A DNA stretch of 40,303 nt. Source: Phycisphaerales bacterium. Lineage in GTDB: Bacteria; Planctomycetota; Phycisphaerae; Phycisphaerales; SM1A02. Position numbers and translations under genes: made by a program. Of this stretch, positions 27,979-40,303 are shown in pieces. Numbering within the stretch: position 1 is the stretch's first letter; the number at the start of each line of letters is the position of its first letter. The DNA lies in assembly GCA_009691915.1 (NCBI GenBank), contig SIAD01000017.1, positions 1 through 40,303 on the forward strand. Direction: 5' to 3'. The notes beneath the pieces are model-generated. The model made no database searches, was not told where the DNA came from, and saw only the letters and a program-made list of their open reading frames with translations.

Positions 27979-28248
27979 ATGACTCCAGACACCTCGGTCG
28001 CATTCAAGCAACTCCACCAAGCAAGCCTCAAGGCTGGCGCTCTCGACTCCAAGACCAAGGAACTCATTGCGCTGGCGATCGGCGTCTCGCGCCTTTGTGA
28101 GGGATGCATCGTCCATCACACCAAGGCAGCGAAGGCCGCAGGAGCGTCACTGCAAGAGGTTCACGAAATGCTGGATGTCTGCACGCTCATGGGGGGTGGC
28201 CCAGCAACCGTCTACGGGAAGAAGGCGGTCGACGCGTACGGTGCGTGA
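27979..28248 (+). CDS. AhpD-like carboxymuconolactone decarboxylase family protein
   Basis: The 89-residue single-domain protein contains the AhpD-type redox motif CEGCIVHH (about 36-43) within the helical CMD fold (KTKELIALAIGVSRLC before it). Such proteins are peroxidase-linked disulfide reductants or related small enzymes, usually as trimers or hexamers. It starts 12 bp after the permease stop and is probably co-transcribed. Confidence 0.85.
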   Translation: MTPDTSVAFKQLHQASLKAGALDSKTKELIALAIGVSRLCEGCIVHHTKAAKAAGASLQEVHEMLDVCTLMGGGPATVYGKKAVDAYGA

Positions 28249-28692: not shown

Positions 28693-29937
28693 CTACGCAC
28701 TTGGTGGCTCTGGCTCCTCGGACACGAGGTGCTTCAGTTGACGGATCTCGGGAAACCTCCACGCGACCAGTCCGACGACTACGAGGGTTCCGAAGCCTCC
28801 AGTCACAACGCTGGCGACTGGACTCCACAGTCGGGCCACCAGCCCGCTCTCGAATGCACCCAGCTCGTTGCTGCACTCAATGAAGAGTGAGTTCACCGCG
28901 CTGACGCGCCCGCGCAAATGGTTCGGCGTGCGAGTCTGAACGAGCGTGTGTCGGATGATCACACTGACATTGTCAACCGCCCCCGAGATAAAGAGCATCA
29001 CGAGGCTGAGCCAGATCCACTGGGACAGGCCAAAGAGGATGAGGGCCACGCCAAACGCCGCGACCGAGAAGAGCAGCGACGCACCCGCACGGCGCATACG
29101 CGGTCGCGCGGCGAGCCAGACCGCCATCACAAACGCCCCGAGATAGGGGGCGGCCTTCAGCCATCCGAGCACGATGGGCCCCCCTCCGAGAATCTCGTCG
29201 GCGTAGATCGGCAGCAGTGCGGTGGCGCCACCAAGGAGCACGCCGAAGAGATCCAGCAGCAGCGTCGCCAGGATGGTGCGCTCGCGCCGGATGTGGCCCA
29301 TGCCGGCGAGCATCGAACGAATCGTCATCGCGCCGGCAGTCCGCGCATCATCGCGCGGTCTGAGGCGAGGCGCGAGAATGGCGAGGATCAGTATCAATCC
29401 CGCACTGATGACGAGCACACCCCAACTCGGCACTCCCGCATTGAGCAGCGCGCCTGCGGCGATCGGACCCGCGACCGCCGAGGCCTGGAAGATCCCGCTA
29501 TTCCAGGTGACGGCACTCTCGAAGTTCTCCGGTTTCACCAGGAGTGGGATCAGCGAATTCCGACTTGGCCCGTTGAAGCTGCGGATGCATCCCGAGAGAA
29601 CGAGCAGCGCGTACCAGGTCCACTCGGATACCCCGAGATAACTCGCCAGAGCAAACGCCAGAGCGATGACCACGAATCCTGCCTGCGTCAAAGTTAGAAT
29701 GAGCTTGCGACTGTGACGGTCTGCGGCATGCCCGGCGACCAGCGCCAGCGCGATCACCGGAAGCGCCCGCACGAGGCCGGCGATTCCGAGAACAAGTGCA
29801 TCGTGGGTCGCGAGCCAGAGGTCCCACAAGACGATAGTCGTGAGCATCTGCAATCCCATCCCCGAACAGAGAAAACCCACCGCGAAGATCGCGTAATTGC
29901 GCTCGCGGATGACTCGGGTCAGGTGCGATGCAGCCAT
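28693..29937 (-). CDS. EntS-like MFS exporter
   Basis: The 414-residue protein has about 12 membrane segments and the layout of the MFS_3/EntS branch (enterobactin exporter, about 416 residues). The motif AGHAADRHSRKLIL follows the second helix, and RSFNGPSRNSLIPLLV lies in the first half. It probably exports a small molecule or siderophore-like compound. No siderophore genes are present. The ATG at 29937 (MAASHLTRVI) begins just before the first helix. Sequence further upstream is open but has no membrane-protein character. Divergent from nagZ across 70 bp. Confidence 0.8.
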   Translation of the reverse strand: MAASHLTRVIRERNYAIFAVGFLCSGMGLQMLTTIVLWDLWLATHDALVLGIAGLVRALPVIALALVAGHAADRHSRKLILTLTQAGFVVIALAFALASYLGVSEWTWYALLVLSGCIRSFNGPSRNSLIPLLVKPENFESAVTWNSGIFQASAVAGPIAAGALLNAGVPSWGVLVISAGLILILAILAPRLRPRDDARTAGAMTIRSMLAGMGHIRRERTILATLLLDLFGVLLGGATALLPIYADEILGGGPIVLGWLKAAPYLGAFVMAVWLAARPRMRRAGASLLFSVAAFGVALILFGLSQWIWLSLVMLFISGAVDNVSVIIRHTLVQTRTPNHLRGRVSAVNSLFIECSNELGAFESGLVARLWSPVASVVTGGFGTLVVVGLVAWRFPEIRQLKHLVSEEPEPPSA

Positions 29938-30007
29938 CGACCTATCTCTACAGGAAACAGCCGTCCGAGGGGCGGTAGGCCATGTGCCGTGGACTACCTT
30001 GCGCTCA

Positions 30008-31006
30008 ATGACCATCGCCACCACGCGCTCCCTCGCGGCGCGCCTTCTCTGTGTCGGGTTTCCTGGCCCGACCCTCGACGACGGGCTTAGGGAGATGCTC
30101 GCGGCCGGTGTCGGGGGAGTCATCCTCTTCGCGAGGAACGCGACCAGCGCCGACGGGGCATCGGAGGTCGTCCGTCAGATCAAACGCGAGAGCGCACGAC
30201 TGGGGAATCCAAGGGTCTTTGCCTCCATCGACCATGAAGGCGGACGGGTGGTCCGGTTGTCCAGCGGCATGACGGTCGTGCCTCCGATGCGCGAAGTTGG
30301 CGCTGGGGGCCCCGAGGAGGCCCGCCGCGTCGGCGCGCTCTTCGCGCGCGAACTCCGCGCCGTGGGGATCGACCTCGACTTCGCCCCGGTCGTCGATGTC
30401 GACAGCAATCCGGCAAATCCAGTGATCGGAGCGCGTGCGTTCGGGAGCGATGCTGACGGCGTCGCCTCCTGCGCCGAGGCGTTCATCGGGGCGATGCAGG
30501 GGGGAGGGGTGGCTGCGTGCGCCAAGCACTTCCCAGGACACGGCGACACCGATCTCGACAGTCACTTCCACCTTCCTCGAGTCTCGCACCCGATCGAGCG
30601 GCTGCGCGAGGTCGAGCTCGCGCCCTTTGCCGCGGCCGTGCGATCGGGGGTGGCCTCGATCATGACGGCGCATGTGGTCTTTGACGCGCTCGACGCGGGA
30701 GTACCGGCGACCATGAGCCACCGGATCATCGATGGGATTCTTCGCCGCGAGATGGGCTACCACGGGGTCATCTTCAGCGACGACCTCGAGATGGCCGCGA
30801 TCGCCGAGCGTGTGGGGATCGGCGAGGCCGCGGTCAGGTCGATCGCCGCCGGAGTCGATTGCATTCTCGTCTGCCACCGAGTCGACCGTCAACAGGAGGC
30901 GATCGAGGCGATCACCAAGGCTGTGATCGATGGCGTGCTTCCCGCCGCTCGCGTCGAGCAGGCCGCAGTGCGGATCGACCTCTTGCGCAGTCGTTACGCG
31001 CGCTGA
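30008..31006 (+). CDS. nagZ: Beta-N-acetylhexosaminidase
   Basis: This GH3 enzyme of 332 residues removes N-acetylglucosamine from anhydromuropeptides in the cytoplasm. The motifs VGGVILFARN, SIDHEGGRVVRL, DLDFAPVVDV, CAKHFPGHGDTDLDSH (catalytic His/Asp dyad) and GVIFSDDLEM (nucleophile Asp) are all present. It is shorter than other GH3 members because it has only the TIM barrel, as expected for NagZ. The last 13 bp overlap convergently with mntR. Confidence 0.93.
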   Translation: MTIATTRSLAARLLCVGFPGPTLDDGLREMLAAGVGGVILFARNATSADGASEVVRQIKRESARLGNPRVFASIDHEGGRVVRLSSGMTVVPPMREVGAGGPEEARRVGALFARELRAVGIDLDFAPVVDVDSNPANPVIGARAFGSDADGVASCAEAFIGAMQGGGVAACAKHFPGHGDTDLDSHFHLPRVSHPIERLREVELAPFAAAVRSGVASIMTAHVVFDALDAGVPATMSHRIIDGILRREMGYHGVIFSDDLEMAAIAERVGIGEAAVRSIAAGVDCILVCHRVDRQQEAIEAITKAVIDGVLPAARVEQAAVRIDLLRSRYAR

Positions 31007-31437
31007 CGGGCGAGATGCCTGCGCATGGCCGCCAGCGTGCGCGGCCCCGCATGATGTTCGATCCCCTCGGCATCGCGAGCGGCATCGACGGCCGGAACTC
31101 CGAGGGACCTGAGAAACTCGAGGACCGTTGCGTGCCGCTCGCGTGACGCACGAGCCATGCGGGTTCCACTCAGAGTCAATGCGATTGGCCCGTGCCGTTC
31201 CTTGGTAGCGAGCCCAGCCCTGGTGACCCGTCTCACGATGCGGACAACCGTCACATGAGAGACACGCATACACACAGCAAGATCACGCACCCGGCAGGCA
31301 CCGGTGCGGGCACTGATCTCCTCTACCGCCTCGACATAATCCTCGAATGTCTCCTTTGCGTGGTCGGTTCGGGTCTTTACGAACGCCTCACGGGCAGCGG
31401 CGGGGAGGATCTTGAGGGGGGTTGCCATCGTGGACAT
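30994..31437 (-). CDS. mntR: Manganese-responsive transcriptional regulator, DtxR family
   Basis: The 147-residue protein has a winged helix-turn-helix (about 40-100; RVRDLAVCMRVSHVTVVRIV) followed by a dimerisation and metal-binding helix pair without an SH3 domain, the size of E. coli MntR (155). Motifs ETFEDYVEAVEEI, ASRERHATVLEFLRSLGV and ARDAEGIEHH match the MntR metal-site helices. With Mn(II) bound it would repress uptake genes. The ATG at 31437 was used. An ATG at 31428 is also in frame. It is divergent from the uptake operon across 24 bp and convergently overlaps nagZ by 13 bp. Confidence 0.9.
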   Translation of the reverse strand: MSTMATPLKILPAAAREAFVKTRTDHAKETFEDYVEAVEEISARTGACRVRDLAVCMRVSHVTVVRIVRRVTRAGLATKERHGPIALTLSGTRMARASRERHATVLEFLRSLGVPAVDAARDAEGIEHHAGPRTLAAMRRHLARQRA

Positions 31438-31450
31438 TGAATCCTATGAT
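31422..31450 (+). promoter_or_regulatory. Sigma70-like promoter of the metal-uptake operon
   Basis: TTGCCA (31422-31427), a 17-nt spacer and TATGAT (31445-31450) make a good sigma70-type promoter. The -35 box lies inside the first codons of the divergent mntR. The expected transcription start (about 31457) is only about 5 nt before the ATG at 31462, so the message should be almost leaderless. On the other strand TATCAT (31451-31446) may be the mntR -10, overlapping this one, but it lacks a clear -35. Confidence 0.6.
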
Positions 31451-31454
31451 ACAA

Positions 31455-31470
31455 TGTAGCCATGGCTACA
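31455..31470. promoter_or_regulatory. Perfect 16-bp palindrome, candidate MntR operator
   Basis: TGTAGCCATGGCTACA is fully self-complementary and centred on the start codon of the substrate-binding protein gene (ATG at 31462). It lies just downstream of the -10 box. The core TAGC-N4-GCTA matches the E. coli MntR box as I remember it (AACATAGCAAAGGCTATGTT). A dimer bound here would block initiation of the uptake operon and cover the upstream side of mntR transcription. Confidence 0.6.
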
Positions 31471-32385
31471 AATCTATCACTTGGCCTGCTCCTGGCCGTG
31501 TGTGCGCAGAGTCCAGTCTCCGCGCCCGAAATCGTGTGCACGACAGGCATGGTCGGAGAGATGGTCCGGGAAATCGTCGGCGACACAGCGTCCGTGACGA
31601 CACTCATGGGGGAGGGGGTCGATCCACACCTCTACAAGCCGACTGTTTCCGATGTCCGTGCGCTCGCAAAGGCGGACATCGTCGTCGCCAACGGACTCAT
31701 GCTCGAGGGGCGCATGCAGGATGTCTTTCCAAAGCTGAGGGAGAAGGGGGCACTGGTCATCGAGGTCGGCGCGGGGCTCGATCCCTCCACGCTCCTCAGA
31801 CCCGAGGGGTCGCACGGACATCCCGATCCCCATGTCTGGATGGATCCGACGATGTGGGCGAAGGCCGCGCTACATGTCGCGAAAGTGCTCGGAGAACGGG
31901 ACTCCGCCAACGCCACGATCTACCAAGAGCGAGCCACGGCGCTCGGCGAGCGATGGCTGGCCGCGGACCGGCGGATCGCGGAGGCGATCGCCACCGTTGA
32001 TTCTTCGAGGCGCGTCCTCGTCACTGCGCACGACGCATTCAGTTATTTCGGGCGACACTACGGGGTCCTCGTGATGGGAATCCAGGGCGTGTCAACCGAG
32101 AGCGAGTCGGGGCTTGCGGACATCCGGCGGATCATCGACATGCTCGTCGAGCGGAAGGTCCCCGCGGTGTTCGTCGAGACGAGCGTCTCGGACAAGAATG
32201 TGCGGGCTCTCGTCGAAGGGGCGAGGGCGCGTAGCCGCGAGGTCATCATCGGCGGATCCCTCTATTCCGACGCGATGGGGAAGCCCGGGACCTTTGATGG
32301 CACCTATGTCGGGATGGTCACCACCAATGCGGCGACCATCGTGAAGGCACTCGGTGGCACTCCGCCGCCGATGGAGACTCCGTGA
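31462..32385 (+). CDS. Metal ABC transporter substrate-binding protein, TroA-like
   Basis: The 307-residue cluster A-I binding protein captures Mn(II), Zn(II) or Fe(II) outside the inner membrane. Ligand motifs are GVDPHLYKPT, PDPHVWMDP, VTAHDAFSYF and LYSDAMG, the same set as in Treponema TroA. QGVSTESESG is the typical loop. There is no long His-rich loop as in ZnuA, which slightly favours Mn/Fe. The N terminus (NLSLGLLLAVCAQSPVSA) acts as a signal but lacks positive charges, and LAVC is a poor lipobox. No earlier start is possible because a TGA lies at 31447-31449. The stop overlaps the ATPase gene in a GTGA. Confidence 0.92.
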   Translation: MATNLSLGLLLAVCAQSPVSAPEIVCTTGMVGEMVREIVGDTASVTTLMGEGVDPHLYKPTVSDVRALAKADIVVANGLMLEGRMQDVFPKLREKGALVIEVGAGLDPSTLLRPEGSHGHPDPHVWMDPTMWAKAALHVAKVLGERDSANATIYQERATALGERWLAADRRIAEAIATVDSSRRVLVTAHDAFSYFGRHYGVLVMGIQGVSTESESGLADIRRIIDMLVERKVPAVFVETSVSDKNVRALVEGARARSREVIIGGSLYSDAMGKPGTFDGTYVGMVTTNAATIVKALGGTPPPMETP

Positions 32386-33162: not shown

Positions 33163-34035
33163 ATGATCGGACTCGACTACAACACCCTCGTTGTTGCGGG
33201 AGCATCGGCACTGCTCGGAACAGCGGGAGGTCTCGCGGGCACGCTGATGCTCCTGCGCAAGCGTGCGCTCATGGGCGATGCGCTTGGTCACGCGACTCTG
33301 CCCGGCATCGCGGTCGCGTATCTCGCGTCGCTCGCGCTTGGTGGTTCCGGCAAGGAAGTGTGGGCATTGATGCTCGGCGCGGGGGCGGGAGGTCTCGCAG
33401 GAGTCGTCGGCGTAGCGGCGATCCGTCGCATTGCGCGCGTCAGCGAGGACACGGCGATGGCGATCGTCCTCGGGTCATTCTTCGGGCTGGGCGCGGCGCT
33501 GCTCACAGTCATCCAGGCTTCCCCCCAAGGAAACCAGGCAGGACTCTCCACATTTGTGACCGGTCACGCCGCGTCGATGGTGCGGAGCGATCTCGACCTT
33601 GCGATGGCCGTCGCCTTGGTGTGCATCCTCGTCGTCCTTGCCCTCTCCAAGGAACTCCGGCTCCTTTGTTTCGATGAGCCCTTCGCCAAGGCGATCGGTC
33701 GTTCGACAAAGTGCCTCGATGCCCTCGTGCTCCTCGTGGTGACGGGAGTCGTCATCGCGGGACTGCAGGCGGTCGGGCTGATCCTGATCCTTGCGCTCCT
33801 TGTGATCCCCGCAGCGACGGCGCGACTTCTCACCGATCGCTTCGGCGCCATGCTCGTCATCGCCGCGGCGCTCGGTGCAGCGAGCGGAATCGGCGGAACG
33901 ATCGCCAGCAGCCTCGGGCCTAGCCTTCCGACTGGTCCGTGCATCGTCGTTGTGGCGGCAGCGATCTTTGCAGCTGCCCTGCTCGTGGCTCCGCGCAATG
34001 GACTCATCGCCCGCGCGGCAGGGGGGCGGCTGTGA
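33163..34035 (+). CDS. Metal ABC transporter permease (TroC-like)
   Basis: The 290-residue ABC-3 family permease has about 8-9 membrane helices. LLRKRALMGDALGHATLPGIAVAYL and ALQAVGLILILALLVIPAATARLLTDR, each broken here across family motifs, mark the N-terminal and coupling-region blocks. The ATG at 33163 has no strong ribosome site but follows the ATPase stop by 4 bp. Its TGA overlaps the GTG of the second permease, so the two are coupled. Confidence 0.92.
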   Translation: MIGLDYNTLVVAGASALLGTAGGLAGTLMLLRKRALMGDALGHATLPGIAVAYLASLALGGSGKEVWALMLGAGAGGLAGVVGVAAIRRIARVSEDTAMAIVLGSFFGLGAALLTVIQASPQGNQAGLSTFVTGHAASMVRSDLDLAMAVALVCILVVLALSKELRLLCFDEPFAKAIGRSTKCLDALVLLVVTGVVIAGLQAVGLILILALLVIPAATARLLTDRFGAMLVIAAALGAASGIGGTIASSLGPSLPTGPCIVVVAAAIFAAALLVAPRNGLIARAAGGRL

Positions 34036-35390
34036 CCAGCTGGACCTGGGCCGTTGATGGATGGATCGTCGCCATCAGCGCGCTCTGCGCCGTCGCCTGT
34101 GCCGTGCCGGGGGCATTCTTGGTCGTGCGACGGAACGCGATGCTCGCCGATGCGGTCTCGCACGCAGTACTGCCTGGAATCGCGCTCGGATTTCTCGTCT
34201 CGGGCACGAGGGATCCGCTCTGGATGTTCCTCGGCGCAGCACTCGCGGGAGTTGTCGTTGCCGTCGGGTCGGGCGCGCTGGCGCGGCTGGGACGAATCGA
34301 TCCGGGCGCCGCAATGGGAATCACCTTCACGACGATGTTCGCCATCGGACTCATTGTGATCGTCCAGGTTGCGGACAAAGTCGATCTTGATCCATCGTGC
34401 GTCCTCTACGGGGCGGTCGAACTAGCACCGCTCGACACCGTGTCGCTCATGGGTGCCAGCATTCCGAGGGCCGCCGTCGTCCTGGGGTCAGTCTGCGCCG
34501 CGAACATTCTCGTCGCGATCCTGCTCTGGAAGGAGATTCTCGTGACGGCGTTCGACCCCGCGCTTGCAGGCACGCTCGGAATGCGACCGAAATGGATCGA
34601 GGGGATCGTCCTAGGAATGGCCGCGGCAACATGCGTCGCGGCGTTCGAGTCGGTCGGAAGCATTCTCGTTGTTGCGATGATGATCATTCCCGCGGCCTCG
34701 GCGCGCCTCTTCAGCGATCGACTCGGAGGCGTGGTCGCGTGCGCCATGGCGACAGGCATCGTGGCGGCGTTTGCGGGTCACTGGCTAGCGTCGTCCGTGG
34801 CCCCGATGGTCGTCGCCGGTGGACGGGACGCATCGACCGCCGGGTCCGTCGCGGCCTCACTGGGTGCGATCTTCGTGGCGTGCCTCATGGTCGCACCGCG
34901 GCGAGGGATCCTCAGGCGTGGCGTGGATCGCGCCCGTCTCGCCCTGCGGATTGCCCGCGAAGACGCACTGGGTCTCTTGTGGCGGCTCGACGAAGATGGG
35001 CGACGGGTGGGAGTGCGGGAACTACGCGACCTGCTCATCGGCGGCGCGCAGACGCGTCCGTGGATCGCACGCATTGCGGTTCGCGCTCTCTCGCACGATG
35101 GGCTCGTCGAAGGCGGGAGTTCGGCAGGGCGTAGGGACGCGATCGCCCTCTCCGACCGTGGCCGACGAGAGGGAGCAGCACTGGTTCGATCGCATCGACT
35201 GTGGGAGCTCTACCTGACTCGGAAGCTTGCCCTGGCGCCCGACCATGTGCACGACACGGCGATGAAACTCGAGCATGTGACCGACGCCGCCATGCGCGAG
35301 CGCCTCGTGCGCGAAGGAGAGATCGACCTATCCCGTCAGCGCGAAGCGTCCGACCCCCACGGCCGCAGGATTCCCGACGACGCGCCCTGA
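34032..35390 (+). CDS. Metal ABC permease fused to a DtxR/MntR-type sensor domain
   Basis: The 452-residue protein starts with GTG at 34032 (GTGA overlap). Residues 1-290 form an ABC-3 permease (VVRRNAMLADAVSHAVLPG and SILVVAMMIIPAASARL). Residues about 295-452 are not membrane protein: a winged-helix-like part (VRELRDLLIGGAQTRPWIAR, HDGLVEG, IALSDRGRREG) leads to a DtxR dimerisation/metal domain. This has SHRLWELYL, DHVHDTAMKLEHV and the end DPHGRRIP. By alignment from memory the anchor ligands His, Glu, His, Glu and His are kept, and the DtxR Cys102 position is Met. The N-terminal DtxR ligand helix is missing. The last 55 bp overlap the convergent M28 gene. The tail may sense metal at the membrane. 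Confidence 0.88.
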   Translation: MTSWTWAVDGWIVAISALCAVACAVPGAFLVVRRNAMLADAVSHAVLPGIALGFLVSGTRDPLWMFLGAALAGVVVAVGSGALARLGRIDPGAAMGITFTTMFAIGLIVIVQVADKVDLDPSCVLYGAVELAPLDTVSLMGASIPRAAVVLGSVCAANILVAILLWKEILVTAFDPALAGTLGMRPKWIEGIVLGMAAATCVAAFESVGSILVVAMMIIPAASARLFSDRLGGVVACAMATGIVAAFAGHWLASSVAPMVVAGGRDASTAGSVAASLGAIFVACLMVAPRRGILRRGVDRARLALRIAREDALGLLWRLDEDGRRVGVRELRDLLIGGAQTRPWIARIAVRALSHDGLVEGGSSAGRRDAIALSDRGRREGAALVRSHRLWELYLTRKLALAPDHVHDTAMKLEHVTDAAMRERLVREGEIDLSRQREASDPHGRRIPDDAP

Positions 35391-36394
35391 GGTGGAGCGA
35401 CGGATGGCGCCGGCACGCTTGCGGGGCGCACTTCGGTCGGTGCCTCCCGTGGCGTGAACGGCTCCCGCGACATCTCGATCACAGCGAGAGCGACGAGCTG
35501 CGCGACCGCGGCCGCCAAGGGCGCGTCGATCTTTGCGACCTCATCGCTCACTCGGTGGTAGTCCTCGTGATCCTCGACCGAGAAGAGCACAGCGGGAACT
35601 TTCTTCTGAAGGAACGGCCCCTGATCGCTTCGGTTGAGCCACTCCGGGTGCTCGTCGACGCGAAGAGACAGCCCCACCTGCTCATTCGCCTTCTTGAGTG
35701 TCGCGATGACGCTCGCCCCCACCGGGCCCGCGTCGAGGAAGATCTCGCGTGGTTTTCCCCGGCTGATCATGTCCATGTTGAAGACGCCGCGGATCTCATG
35801 AAGCGGCACCGGCGGGTTCTTGACGAAGGCGCGCGATCCAACCATTCCCGCTTCCTCGCCGTTGAAGGCGACGAACAGAACCATGCACCTCGCCTCGTGT
35901 TCACTCCCGGCGCACGCCCGCAGCGCGCGGGCAACACCGAGCAACCCGGCGACGCCCGAGGCGTTGTCGTCGGCTCCGTTGTGGATCTTGTCTTCACCTG
36001 AGCGTCTCGGACGCAGGTGGTCGTAGTGCGCGGTGACGAGGATGTAGCCCGGCGTCGCGCCAGAGGTCGGCGCGGGCATGGAGGCAACGAGGTTCGGCCC
36101 CGTCTCAGGATTCGAGTCGATTGCCGTGCGCGTGGGAGTTAGTCCTGCACTCTCAAGCCGTGCGCTGATCCACAAGGCAGCCTTCTCCGCGAACGGACTC
36201 CGAAAGAACCGTCCGCCCATCTCGTCACTGGCAAGTTCCGTCACTTCGGTGCGCAGCTGCTCAGCGGTGATCGTCTTCTTGATCACTTCGATCGCGGTTG
36301 GCACGGTCTTGCTCGCGGTGCTCTCCTGCGCCACCGCGGCGCTTGCCGACGAGAGCGAGAGCATGACAAGAACGGCCAGTCGTCGAGTGGTCAT
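35336..36394 (-). CDS. Secreted M28-family zinc aminopeptidase
   Basis: The 352-residue precursor has a signal peptide (residues 1-22, ending AVAQ) and one M28 di-zinc peptidase domain. Motifs are VTAHYDHL (His ligand), NGADDNASGVAGLL (bridging Asp), FNGEEAGMVGS (catalytic Glu pair), NMDMIS (Asp) and EDHEDYH (His). It probably trims amino-terminal residues from peptides in the periplasm. The C-terminal 40 residues are Pro/Ser-rich and partly antisense to the end of the permease-sensor gene. The ATG at 36394 overlaps the stop of the P-type ATPase by 4 bp, so it is expressed with that exporter. Confidence 0.9.
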   Translation of the reverse strand: MTTRRLAVLVMLSLSSASAAVAQESTASKTVPTAIEVIKKTITAEQLRTEVTELASDEMGGRFFRSPFAEKAALWISARLESAGLTPTRTAIDSNPETGPNLVASMPAPTSGATPGYILVTAHYDHLRPRRSGEDKIHNGADDNASGVAGLLGVARALRACAGSEHEARCMVLFVAFNGEEAGMVGSRAFVKNPPVPLHEIRGVFNMDMISRGKPREIFLDAGPVGASVIATLKKANEQVGLSLRVDEHPEWLNRSDQGPFLQKKVPAVLFSVEDHEDYHRVSDEVAKIDAPLAAAVAQLVALAVIEMSREPFTPREAPTEVRPASVPAPSVAPPQGASSGILRPWGSDASR

Positions 36395-38319
36395 GGCCTG
36401 TCCTTGTACCCGAGAAGTCTCAGCGCGTTGAATGCGACGATCACCGTGCTCCCCTCATGCGCCACAACGGCGAACCCGAGCGGCACAATCCCCAGAGCCG
36501 CGAAGGGAATGAGCAGCGCCACGACACCCAGCGAAATCAGGACATTCTGCATGATCGTCCTGCGGGCTGCGCGGCTCAGACCGACGGCGAAGGCGAGCTT
36601 CGCGAGGTCATCAGCCATCAGCGCAACATCGGCCGCCTCGAGCGCGACATCGGTGCCCGTCGCGCCCATCGCAATCCCGACCGTGGCTGTCGCGAGGGCG
36701 GGCGCGTCGTTGACGCCGTCCCCGATCATTGCGGTCGGTCCCCACTTGGCCATCAACTGTTTCACTTCTTCGATCTTGGTCTCGGGGAGAAGCCCGGCCT
36801 TGAACTCGTCGACGCCAAGCGGTAGGGCGACCGCCCGTGCGACGAACGCGTTGTCCCCAGTGAGCATCACGACGCGCTTGATTCCGAGCCCCCTGAGTCG
36901 GGCGATGATGGCCGCGCCAGCTGGCCGCACTCGGTCGGCGATCCCGAACGCTCCGACCACGCGATCGCCGAGCGCGACCACCGATACGGTCTTCGCCTCG
37001 GATTCGATGGCGGCGACTCTCGCCGCGAGCATCGGAGGAATCGCAGGAATACCCTCGCGACCGAACGACTTTGGTCCGGCGATGAGGGCGCGCTGACCGA
37101 GGACGATCCCCTCCATCCCCCGCCCCGGGATGGCGCGGAGTTCGCGTACTTCCGGAGAAGCAACACCATCCGCGTTTGCTCGGCGCATTACCGCCCGCGC
37201 CAGAGGGTGCGACGAGTCTCGGTCGAGCGCTGCGGCGATCGACAGTGTCTCCGACTCGGTCGACCCTTCGGCCGCGACGATGTCTGTGATCTCGGGCCGA
37301 CCCTCTGTCAGCGTCCCCGTCTTGTCGAATGCGATCGCCCGCACGGTCCCAAGCGACTCGAGGTGCACGCCGCCCTTGATGAGCACGCCGTTGCGCGCCG
37401 CCTGAGCAATCCCCGCGAGCACCGCGCTTGGCGTTGATATCACGAGAGCGCACGGCGACGCCCCGACAAGCACCGCCATCGCCCGCAGGAACGCATCCTC
37501 AAACGGCATCGCGGCGAAGACCATCAACCCGCCCACGAGCGCGGGCACCGCCACCAGCACGATGGGTGTGTAGATGCGCGTGAACTTCTCCGACATCCTC
37601 TGGGTCCGTCCCTTGTTCGCCTGGCTCTCCTCGACGAGCCGGATCATCCGGGCCATCGTTGACTCGCTCGCCAGCTTGGTCGAGGCCACCAGCAGCAGTC
37701 CGTCCCCGTTGACCGTTCCGGCGAAGACCTGTCCGCCTGGCTCCTTTCGCACCGGCACACTCTCGCCGGTGATCGGGCTCTGATCGACCGCGGAGCTTCC
37801 TTCGCGCACCGCCCCATCGACCGGGATCCGCTCTCCTGGCTTCACGCGCACAAGATCGCCAACCTCGATCTGCTCGATGGGAAGTTCGAGCTCGCCGCCA
37901 TTGCGCACGACGCGCGCAACCTTTGGAGTCAGATTCCCGAGCGCGCGAATCGCATTGCGCGCCCGTTCGGTGGCGAGCCCCTCGAGGCCGTGCCCCAGCG
38001 AGAAGAGAAATAGCAGGATCGCCGATTCATCGATCTGTCCAACGGCACCAGCACCGATCGCGGCCACGAGCATCAGGAGATCGACATCAAGTTGGCGTTT
38101 CAGCACCTGCTGGATCGATCGGACCGTCACATGCCAGCCACCGGCGAGGCAAGACCCCAGCAGCAGGCAGAGAACGAGTGTCTCGCTACCGCTGAAGCGT
38201 GGTGCCACGAGGCCTCCGCCAAGCAGCAGCCCACACACGAGGGCCGACATGAGATCCGGGTCTCGAAAGAGCGAACACGGTCCTCCACTCGACGCTGGAT
38301 GGCGCTCATTGCAACTCAT
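36391..38319 (-). CDS. P1B-4 type metal-exporting P-type ATPase
   Basis: The 642-residue inner-membrane pump has the phosphorylation site DKTGT, TGES in the actuator domain, SHPLARAV in the nucleotide domain and GDGVNDAPAL. The membrane motif is SPC (GASPCALV), and the last helix carries AHEGSTVIV. The SPC plus HEGST pair defines the P1B-4 subgroup, whose members export Co(II), Fe(II) or Zn(II) (CoaT, PfeT, CtpD). There is no N-terminal HMA domain, as usual for this subgroup. It is the middle gene of a minus-strand set, 36 bp after the DUF2892-like gene, and overlaps the M28 gene by 4 bp. Confidence 0.92.
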   Translation of the reverse strand: MSCNERHPASSGGPCSLFRDPDLMSALVCGLLLGGGLVAPRFSGSETLVLCLLLGSCLAGGWHVTVRSIQQVLKRQLDVDLLMLVAAIGAGAVGQIDESAILLFLFSLGHGLEGLATERARNAIRALGNLTPKVARVVRNGGELELPIEQIEVGDLVRVKPGERIPVDGAVREGSSAVDQSPITGESVPVRKEPGGQVFAGTVNGDGLLLVASTKLASESTMARMIRLVEESQANKGRTQRMSEKFTRIYTPIVLVAVPALVGGLMVFAAMPFEDAFLRAMAVLVGASPCALVISTPSAVLAGIAQAARNGVLIKGGVHLESLGTVRAIAFDKTGTLTEGRPEITDIVAAEGSTESETLSIAAALDRDSSHPLARAVMRRANADGVASPEVRELRAIPGRGMEGIVLGQRALIAGPKSFGREGIPAIPPMLAARVAAIESEAKTVSVVALGDRVVGAFGIADRVRPAGAAIIARLRGLGIKRVVMLTGDNAFVARAVALPLGVDEFKAGLLPETKIEEVKQLMAKWGPTAMIGDGVNDAPALATATVGIAMGATGTDVALEAADVALMADDLAKLAFAVGLSRAARRTIMQNVLISLGVVALLIPFAALGIVPLGFAVVAHEGSTVIVAFNALRLLGYKDRP

Positions 38320-39305: not shown

Positions 39306-40303
39306 ATGAGGAGCCTCAGTCCAGTATCGACCGCTGCGCCCGAGAGCCCTCTGCGGGGCTTCACGGTGGTCGAACTCCTCGTGGTCGTGGCCATCATCGG
39401 GCTCTTGGTGGCGATCCTCGTCGTCGGACTCGAGAAGGCGCGGTTTCTGTCGCAGACTGCCCGATGCCTCAACAATCAGCGGACCCTCGCGCTGGCGCAG
39501 GTGTCGTATGCAACCGATAACGGCGGCGCCTATGCGAGCAGTCAGACAAAGATCTGGCCTGGGTTTGACTTCGACTTCCCACTGAACAACGCGTGCGGTG
39601 CGTTTCACATCGTGATCAACAAGGGGAACATGACTCAGACGGCCTATCACGGATGGGTCGCGTCGTACGCCCCGAACATGACCGTCATTGCGGGAGTGGA
39701 GTACGAGGCGCCGGCGGCGCTTGAGAAGGGAAGGCTCTTCGCATACATCGGGAGTCCCCACGCGTACAGATCGCCGCTCGAACCGACGACTGATCGCATT
39801 CGCTCGTACTCGTTCAACGGTTTTGTCGGCACGACGATTCCGGAGGATGGCATAGACAGGGCGACCGCCTGGCACACTTGGTTCTGCGCCAAGGGAGTCA
39901 ACCCGAACCAGTGGAAGTCCACGCACGCGGCGTTCATCAAACATCCATCGCAGATGCTGTGCGCAATCGTCGAGGACGACCGCCGCGCAAATCAACTCGC
40001 CTACAACGCTGGAGGATGGCTGTTCGATCCACGGACACCTGCGGGGACCCCCGACGCGAATCCTGTTCCTGCAACCGGGTGGCAGGGGTGGATCGACTGG
40101 CCTGCGTTCTGGCATCCTGAAGCGATCACCCACTCCTATATGGATGGATCGACAGCGACCTATTCGGTGCAGAGCCGGATTCTCCCGTCGCAGATTGAAG
40201 GGCCGCCGGGCTTTGGGTACGGACATGGATTCCCCGAGCCTGCCATTGCCGGATTCCGACGCGACTGGCACTACTTCCGCGAACGGTTGTTCCCGGGCAT
40301 CAT
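39306..40303 (+). CDS. Type II secretion/pseudopilin-like protein, 3' end beyond window
   Basis: The frame opens at ATG 39306 and is still open at the window edge (332 codons). Residues about 18-42 form a prepilin signature: RG then FTVVELLVVVAIIGLL, with cleavage expected after the Gly and Glu at +5. A helix, LEKARFLSQTARCLNNQRTLALAQ, leads into a large soluble domain containing SYSFNGFV and SYMDGST. This resembles planctomycete H-X9-DG-type pilin-like proteins, though the canonical DG motif is modified. These are secreted surface or secretion-system proteins and planctomycete genomes often carry many copies. No Shine-Dalgarno site is seen. The gene is divergent from the Lys-rich protein across about 105 bp. 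Confidence 0.85.
   Translation, partial: MRSLSPVSTAAPESPLRGFTVVELLVVVAIIGLLVAILVVGLEKARFLSQTARCLNNQRTLALAQVSYATDNGGAYASSQTKIWPGFDFDFPLNNACGAFHIVINKGNMTQTAYHGWVASYAPNMTVIAGVEYEAPAALEKGRLFAYIGSPHAYRSPLEPTTDRIRSYSFNGFVGTTIPEDGIDRATAWHTWFCAKGVNPNQWKSTHAAFIKHPSQMLCAIVEDDRRANQLAYNAGGWLFDPRTPAGTPDANPVPATGWQGWIDWPAFWHPEAITHSYMDGSTATYSVQSRILPSQIEGPPGFGYGHGFPEPAIAGFRRDWHYFRERLFPGI

Follow-up and report, generated by a model that had tools for sequence, protein, structure and literature searches.

The window, a stretch of 40,303 nucleotides from a Phycisphaerales bacterium, contains an operon for an ABC-type metal importer that encodes a solute-binding protein, an ATPase and two permeases, with the gene for a stand-alone MntR-type regulator, P0003, divergent from it (Table 1). 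The separate soluble MntR that the earlier note placed at this locus is real: apart from the PF02742 match, the best NCBIfam model for P0003 is PRK11050 (MntR), at 131.7 bits and below that model's cut-off of 153, and P0003 and the second permease, P0001, are the sole PF02742 matches in the genome. The best NCBIfam models for the solute-binding protein are a mixture of Zn and Mn types, all below their cut-offs, and Pfam reported no extra domain in the 258-residue ATPase. Judging by the regulator and the ATPase, the substrate of the importer is probably of the Mn2+ type.

The importer is adjoined by a heavy-metal P-type ATPase (36391-38319, minus strand; TIGR01525, 599 bits, above cut-off), which holds the stretches SPC and HEGST, as is characteristic of Fe/Co-type exporters in the P1B-4 group. 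The window also encodes an AhpD-core protein (27979-28248), an MFS transporter (28693-30123), a beta-N-acetylhexosaminidase (29897-31006) and, at 39306-40303, an open reading frame with a type IV prepilin-like beginning.

Table 1. Features of the importer locus, in window coordinates
Feature	Position	Strand	Basis or remark
Stand-alone MntR-type regulator (P0003), divergent from operon	30994..31437	-	PF02742 E 2.1e-8, above cut-off
Promoter-like site TTGCCA-17-TATGAT for operon	31422..31450	+	consensus scan, 10/12 matches
24-bp imperfect palindrome ACATTGAATCCTATGATACAATGT	31434..31457		genome's sole site within 3 mismatches
Box A, a perfect operator-like palindrome, TGTAGCCATGGCTACA, spanning the start codon of the solute-binding gene	31455..31470
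ZnuA-family metal-binding (solute-binding) protein	31462..32385	+	PF01297 E 3.7e-74
ABC ATPase, 258 aa	32382..33158	+	NCBIfam: best matches to Mn/Fe importer ATPases, none reaching its cut-off
First permease, tail-less (P0002)	33163..34035	+	PF00950 E 2.4e-51; within tailed clade of permease tree
Second permease fused to DtxR/MntR-type tail (P0001, 452 aa)	34032..35390	+	ORF, Pfam, AlphaFold2, PDB matches
Continuous predicted helix, residues 293-321, running from last membrane helix into the equivalent of DtxR helix 1	34908..34994	+	DSSP on AlphaFold2 model
D311, equivalent to DtxR Met10	34962..34964	+	DtxR ligand position 10
Helix corresponding to the DNA-recognition helix (residues 343-355)	35058..35096	+	AlphaFold2 model; unconserved in family
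Metal-binding and dimerisation helices (PF02742)	35154..35375	+	Pfam
Codons of H388, E392, H407, M411, E414, H415	35193..35276	+	equivalent to DtxR H79, E83, H98, C102, E105, H106

The fusion of a permease with a DtxR/MntR-type tail, the central claim of the earlier note, is borne out by the open frame, Pfam, the structure model and matches in the PDB. P0001 is encoded by one uninterrupted gene that begins with a GTG codon overlapping the stop codon of the first permease and has no internal stops. The ABC-3 family (PF00950) matches residues 14-285 (E 4.8e-39) and Fe_dep_repr_C (PF02742) residues 375-448 (E 8.1e-14), both above cut-off; the N-terminal Fe_dep_repress model gave no match to P0001 at E<=1. 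Its membrane domain and its operon, with a solute-binding protein, an ATPase and another permease, make P0001 an ABC-3 metal permease, and the DtxR/MntR-type domain extends over residues 303-452 or thereabouts. A match over the whole or nearly the whole length of P0001, free of internal stops, is present in 8 of 18 genomes of the same genus (the match in one of these, G017, stops at a contig edge), so that the fused frame cannot be put down to a missed stop or frameshift in a single assembly, and the possibility that the tail is a separate gene can be ruled out.

The AlphaFold2 model of P0001, built with 62 sequences, is confident (mean pLDDT 92.6, pTM 0.87). In structural comparisons with VIA-align, its permease part matches the PsaBC Mn importer (7kyp; Z 32.3, 27% identity), whose aligned chains are permease only and end at model residue 296. 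The comparison of the tail with DtxR/MntR structures that the earlier note had called for gave a clear match of residues 304-452 to DtxR (2qq9; Z 17.3, rmsd 2.1 A over 135 residues, 27% identity), which together with the confident model rules out an artefact of fold assignment. In the model, the membrane domain is followed by the continuous helix 293-321, helices 328-337 and 343-355, a short wing strand, and the last helices at 375-399, 403-414 and 419-428. The winged helix that had been read from the sequence thus stands as a predicted fold; the recognition helix within it lacks conservation across the family.

Plausible ligands occupy all seven DtxR positions in the tail, with D311 carried by the continuous helix of the model and the others being H388, E392, H407, M411, E414 and H415. 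The earlier statement that the second-site ligands are mostly retained can therefore be extended: ligands are present for both DtxR metal sites, at positions 10, 102, 105 and 106 and at positions 79, 83 and 98, with Asp in place of Met10 and Met in place of Cys102. Published accounts give Met10, Cys102, Glu105 and His106 as ligands in DtxR, and Asp8, Glu99, Glu102 and His103 in Bacillus subtilis MntR (PMC4805248, PMC6860424). The tail accordingly shares with the DtxR, IdeR and MntR metalloregulators the fold, including the winged helix and the metal-binding and dimerisation helices, and all ligand positions; it differs from them in the two substituted ligands, in being tethered to the membrane and in lacking an SH3/FeoA domain.

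We compared 121 loci, namely the window, 40 stretches of relatives and 80 named loci (the best 80 of 581 pattern matches), or 119 after the duplicates L080 (of L045) and L115 (of L057) were left out; most of the records are metagenome assemblies. Because the patterns include RxHRLWEx[YF]L and hence are biased towards tails that have H79 and E83, the 57 tails of the other set, found by whole-protein similarity, were counted apart. How widely the fusion occurs, a question raised in the earlier note, has a partial answer: besides the 8 of 18 congeners, it was found, among the best 80 of 581, in named records of Planctomycetota, Verrucomicrobiota, Latescibacterota, Omnitrophota, Sumerlaeota and Bacteroidota. 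Across the phylum, 289 of 392 genomes have a match, a number that includes permease-only matches and is no count of fusions. Both permeases are tailed at 45 of the 119 loci, the first only at 27 and the second only at 13, that is, one tail per permease pair at 40 loci, the window's genus among them; a single tailed permease is present at 19 loci (some at contig ends), no permease of the pair is tailed at 12, and 3 have a single untailed permease. These counts are no frequencies in nature, since the loci were picked by similarity to the fusion, and tails that have decayed badly may be missing from them, since a tail call requires a tail-profile score.

The comparison of 149 tails, 72 on first permeases (T1), 58 on second permeases (T2) and 19 on single permeases (TS), revealed a nearly invariant core: H79, E83, E105 and H106 are kept in 145 of them and in all 57 of the subset found without the tail motif. 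Each kind of tail has its own ligand sets, H-H-E-D-D-E-H (46/72) and N-H-E-H-E-E-H (12/72) in T1, and D-H-E-H-E-E-H (31/58) and D-H-E-H-M-E-H (16/58) in T2, and TS tails mostly have D-H-E-H-E-E-H (15/19). The T1 and T2 sets each persist where the partner permease is untailed. The four tails in which the core is partly lost (L082, L087, L088 and L149) are all T1, and at the first three of these loci the partner tail keeps its ligand set; such cases possibly represent one dead sensor within a pair.

The permease tree consists of two clades that correspond to the two permeases, with the single tailed permeases branching at the base of the first. The untailed first permease of the window's genus nests among tailed ones, which points to loss of its tail. 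Fitch counts of 8 and 9 changes of tail state imply frequent loss or gain and hence that tails are dispensable. In the tail tree, from which the ligand-less T1 tails of L087, L088 and L149 were left out, 69 T1 tails and one single form one group (support 0.985), 58 T2 tails and two singles form another (0.909), and T1, T2 and most singles come together with support 0.943; independent capture of the T1 and T2 tails is thus less likely. A single fusion at the origin of all tails is only suggested by these sequences, because the node that parts all tails from ten stand-alone regulators, of which those named are all Bacteroidota, has support 0.0. These ten regulators of the HRLWE type, by grouping with the tails, hint at the source of the fusion.

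Several further features of these proteins were observed. A Trp at DtxR position 82 is present in 147 of 149 tails, 9 of 32 DtxR-type regulators and none of 26 MntR-type regulators, and the HRLWE form occurs in the stand-alone regulators of L116, L120, L128, L129, L130, L132, L134, L135 and L140. Nine tails (L122, L125, L130, L131, L133, L137, L139, L141 and L148), all on single fused permeases and mostly from Saprospiraceae records, run about 70 residues past DPHGSPIP, an extension that is possibly an FeoA/SH3-like domain.

The recognition helix is where tails and stand-alone regulators part. Its mean information is 1.51 bits in T1, 1.48 in T2 and 1.71 in TS tails, compared to 2.90 in DtxR-type and 3.19 in MntR-type regulators, whereas the values for the metal helix are 3.02, 2.97 and 3.07 compared to 3.49 and 3.36, respectively. 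The same holds in the subset found without the tail motif, where T1 and T2 have 1.99 and 1.82 bits in the recognition helix (3.46 and 3.48 in stand-alone regulators) and 3.62 and 3.25 in the metal helix (3.73 and 3.54). When tails and regulators were compared over the same loci, the recognition helices of T2 tails were 20% identical and those of their MntR neighbours 64% (23 loci, 253 pairs), against 64% and 69% for the metal helix at these 23 loci. The corresponding recognition-helix values were 23% for T2 and 53% for DtxR-type neighbours (10 loci, 45 pairs), 23% for T1 and 58% for MntR neighbours (18 loci), and 25% for T1 and 48% for DtxR-type neighbours (22 loci). The divergence is apparent even within the window's genus, with identities of 41% among nine tails and 89% among six MntRs in the recognition helix, and of 84% and 82% in the metal helix.

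Length varies along with sequence. The distance from ligand 10 to H79 is 56-102 residues in T1 and 53-81 in T2, compared to 67-71 in MntR-type and 57-71 in DtxR-type regulators, and that from H79 to H106 is constant in tails at 25-27 residues. In the first permease of L103, a single six-residue helix is predicted where helices 2 and 3 are expected, although with low local confidence (pLDDT about 56), and the tail keeps the ligand set H-H-E-D-D-E-H; these lengths and this model indicate a recognition helix that is shortened or absent in some homologous tails. Because the tails lack the conserved DNA-recognition helix of DtxR/MntR regulators, we classify the tail as a DtxR-derived domain only, outside the transcription regulators. 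Two observations qualify this picture. Over the winged-helix region, tails (net charge +2.4 to +3.6) are no less positive than regulators (+2.3 and +2.6), so that the tail may still make some contact with DNA, and an R-x-W-[STPA] motif near the recognition helix, found in 39 of 72 T1 tails (e.g. those of L034, L038 and L041) and 3 of 58 T2 tails, implies that this region is not merely decaying; the motif hints at some other conserved contact.

The operator-like boxes bear on the question of which protein regulates the operon. Box A, TGTAGCNNNGGCTACA, is located upstream of the solute-binding gene at MntR-type loci; in the window, it falls just past the promoter-like site (one found compared to 0.3 expected in shuffles), it recurs without mismatches at five loci of the same genus (L065, L066, L067, L068 and L070), and no second copy within one mismatch was found elsewhere in the window's genome. 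The 24-bp palindrome was not seen in the upstream regions of the same five congeners and was set aside as a family operator for that reason. DtxR-type loci (e.g. L039, L042, L057 and L119) have instead an upstream palindrome, box B, TTTGANNNNTCAAA, a candidate operator of the DtxR-type group. Among 58 operons with one typed neighbouring regulator, 20 of the MntR type have box A only, 14 of the DtxR type have box B only, and 24 (6 MntR-type and 18 DtxR-type) have neither box; there is no discordant case. Given that the boxes were defined on the same loci as counted and that related loci are not independent, the P value of 7e-10 overstates the association; what counts is that not one operon disagrees with its regulator. 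Twin-tailed operons behave alike (12 with A, 5 with B, none discordant, 9 with neither), and untailed operons carry the same boxes (1 with A, 3 with B, 1 with neither). The operator type therefore tracks the stand-alone regulator, not the tail, and bears only indirectly on whether the tail itself binds an operator. A stand-alone PF02742 protein is also encoded in 32 of 35 tailed genomes and was not found in the other three, G015 and G022, with contig ends near, and G025.

The fusion itself is already known. As described in the literature, Chlamydia trachomatis YtgCR (CT069) is likewise an ABC-3-type permease with a C-terminal DtxR-like domain, encoded in a metal-importer operon with two permeases; its tail is cleaved off during infection, binds DNA and represses transcription in an iron-dependent manner, and full-length YtgCR might act too (PMC5599777, PMC6504234, PMC7755916). 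Orthologous fusions have been reported in 11 phyla (PMC5599777), and YtgR has been called the one iron-dependent regulator that Chlamydia has (PMC6504234). P0001 belongs with YtgCR by architecture and differs in that a stand-alone MntR and box A are present at the locus, in that the recognition helix of the tail is unconserved and in that both permeases are tailed in many relatives. The principle of a cytoplasmic domain that senses the imported substrate and slows the pump is, in turn, familiar from MetNI and ModABC, as described in a review of transporter regulation (PMC10710835); in those importers, the domain (C2 in MetNI, that of ModC in ModABC) has an unrelated fold and is part of the ATPase, in contrast to the DtxR fold on the permease here, and the review makes no mention of DtxR. 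Among the papers listed by searches of open-licence full texts, none dealt with DtxR-type tails that gate transport. What appears new with respect to this literature is the comparison of 121 loci, the twin tails, the lost conservation of the recognition helix and the operator evidence.

Of the two mechanisms that the earlier note put forward without preference, gating of transport by cytoplasmic metal and operator binding at the membrane, we favour the first, with middling confidence: the tail would sense metal in the cytoplasm and act back on transport. We lean to this reading because the recognition helix is the least conserved part of the tail and in some homologues is shortened or lost, because the metal helices are among the best conserved parts, and because the operator tracks the stand-alone regulator. 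The nearly invariant ligand core, the stand-alone PF02742 proteins of most tailed genomes and the predicted helix that extends from the membrane into the metal site also fit this reading. P0001 would be one of the two membrane subunits of an importer of presumed Mn2+ type; its tail would lie in the cytoplasm, and the predicted continuous helix, which bears D311, would connect it to the last membrane helix. When cytoplasmic metal rises, the tail would bind it between helix 1 and helices 4-5, and the ensuing shift, relayed through the continuous helix to the membrane domain or the ATPase, would slow import (trans-inhibition); transcription of the operon would be left to MntR. The metal, its binding, the movement and the inhibition are all postulates of this model. 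Where both permeases are tailed, with a fixed ligand set for each, or where a single permease is tailed, one pump would carry two sensors, which speaks for such a brake. The loci with one tail per permease pair imply that a pump can do without two tails pairing inside it; in such cases, tails of separate pumps might pair, or the tail might touch the ATPase. Several observations weigh against the model: winged helices charged like those of regulators, the R-x-W motif in T1 tails, the frequent loss or gain of tails, the 24 of 58 operons in which neither box was found, and the position of the known trans-inhibition domains, those of MetNI and ModABC, on the ATPase.

Other readings of the same tail deserve consideration. 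By analogy with YtgCR, whose cleaved tail represses its own operon with iron according to the published descriptions, the tail could act on DNA as a metal-dependent repressor, once freed from the permease by cleavage or produced separately by translation from an internal start (candidate in-frame GTG/ATG codons are present at residues 282, 286 and 298). The shared architecture, the predicted winged helix with its wing and regulator-like charge, and the three tailed genomes in which a stand-alone PF02742 protein was not found are consistent with this scenario, but a recognition helix that is unconserved even inside a genus and the 34 to 0 concordance of operators with stand-alone regulators are not what it predicts, and the parallel is weakened by the soluble MntR, given that YtgR is described as the sole iron-dependent regulator of Chlamydia. 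We consider this scenario quite unlikely. It seems to us highly improbable that an uncut tail, still anchored in the membrane, binds an operator, which might lie at another place in the genome, and so links transport with transcription: the fold and the positive charge are kept, and every tail could have diverged towards a DNA site of its own, but the genome has no second box A-like site within one mismatch, the recognition helix varies inside the genus, and any target would be hypothetical.

A reading that dispenses with both DNA and inhibition would have the tail serve as a metal-dependent module that receives or buffers metal leaving the pump, or that joins transporters to one another through tail dimers. 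The metal and dimerisation helices are indeed the conserved part of the tails; the single tail of a heterodimer such as that of the window would need a mate on another transporter or some different partner; and the R-x-W motif peculiar to T1 is as expected of an interface. Nevertheless, this reading depends on a hypothetical partner and leaves the continuous helix that bears D311 unexplained, so that we regard an assembly or hand-over function as improbable, although credible.

Through the case of Chlamydia, permease-DtxR fusions have so far been viewed as membrane-born repressors. If the tails of other phyla are transport brakes, a repurposed transcription factor would sense metal at the pump itself, providing a second layer of control beside MntR and an example of an ABC importer with its feedback domain on the membrane subunit. 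It would follow that the fusions split into those that are the only DtxR-type regulator of their genome and those that act beside a stand-alone one. In its most general form, a proposal that we put forward tentatively and with somewhat less than even confidence, importers in Planctomycetota and other phyla may have converted a DtxR repressor into an allosteric brake that is part of the pump, with two distinct metal-sensing tails per pump (H-H-E-D-D-E-H and D-H-E-H-E/M-E-H), which would have given up DNA recognition and left the control of transcription to a separate MntR or DtxR.
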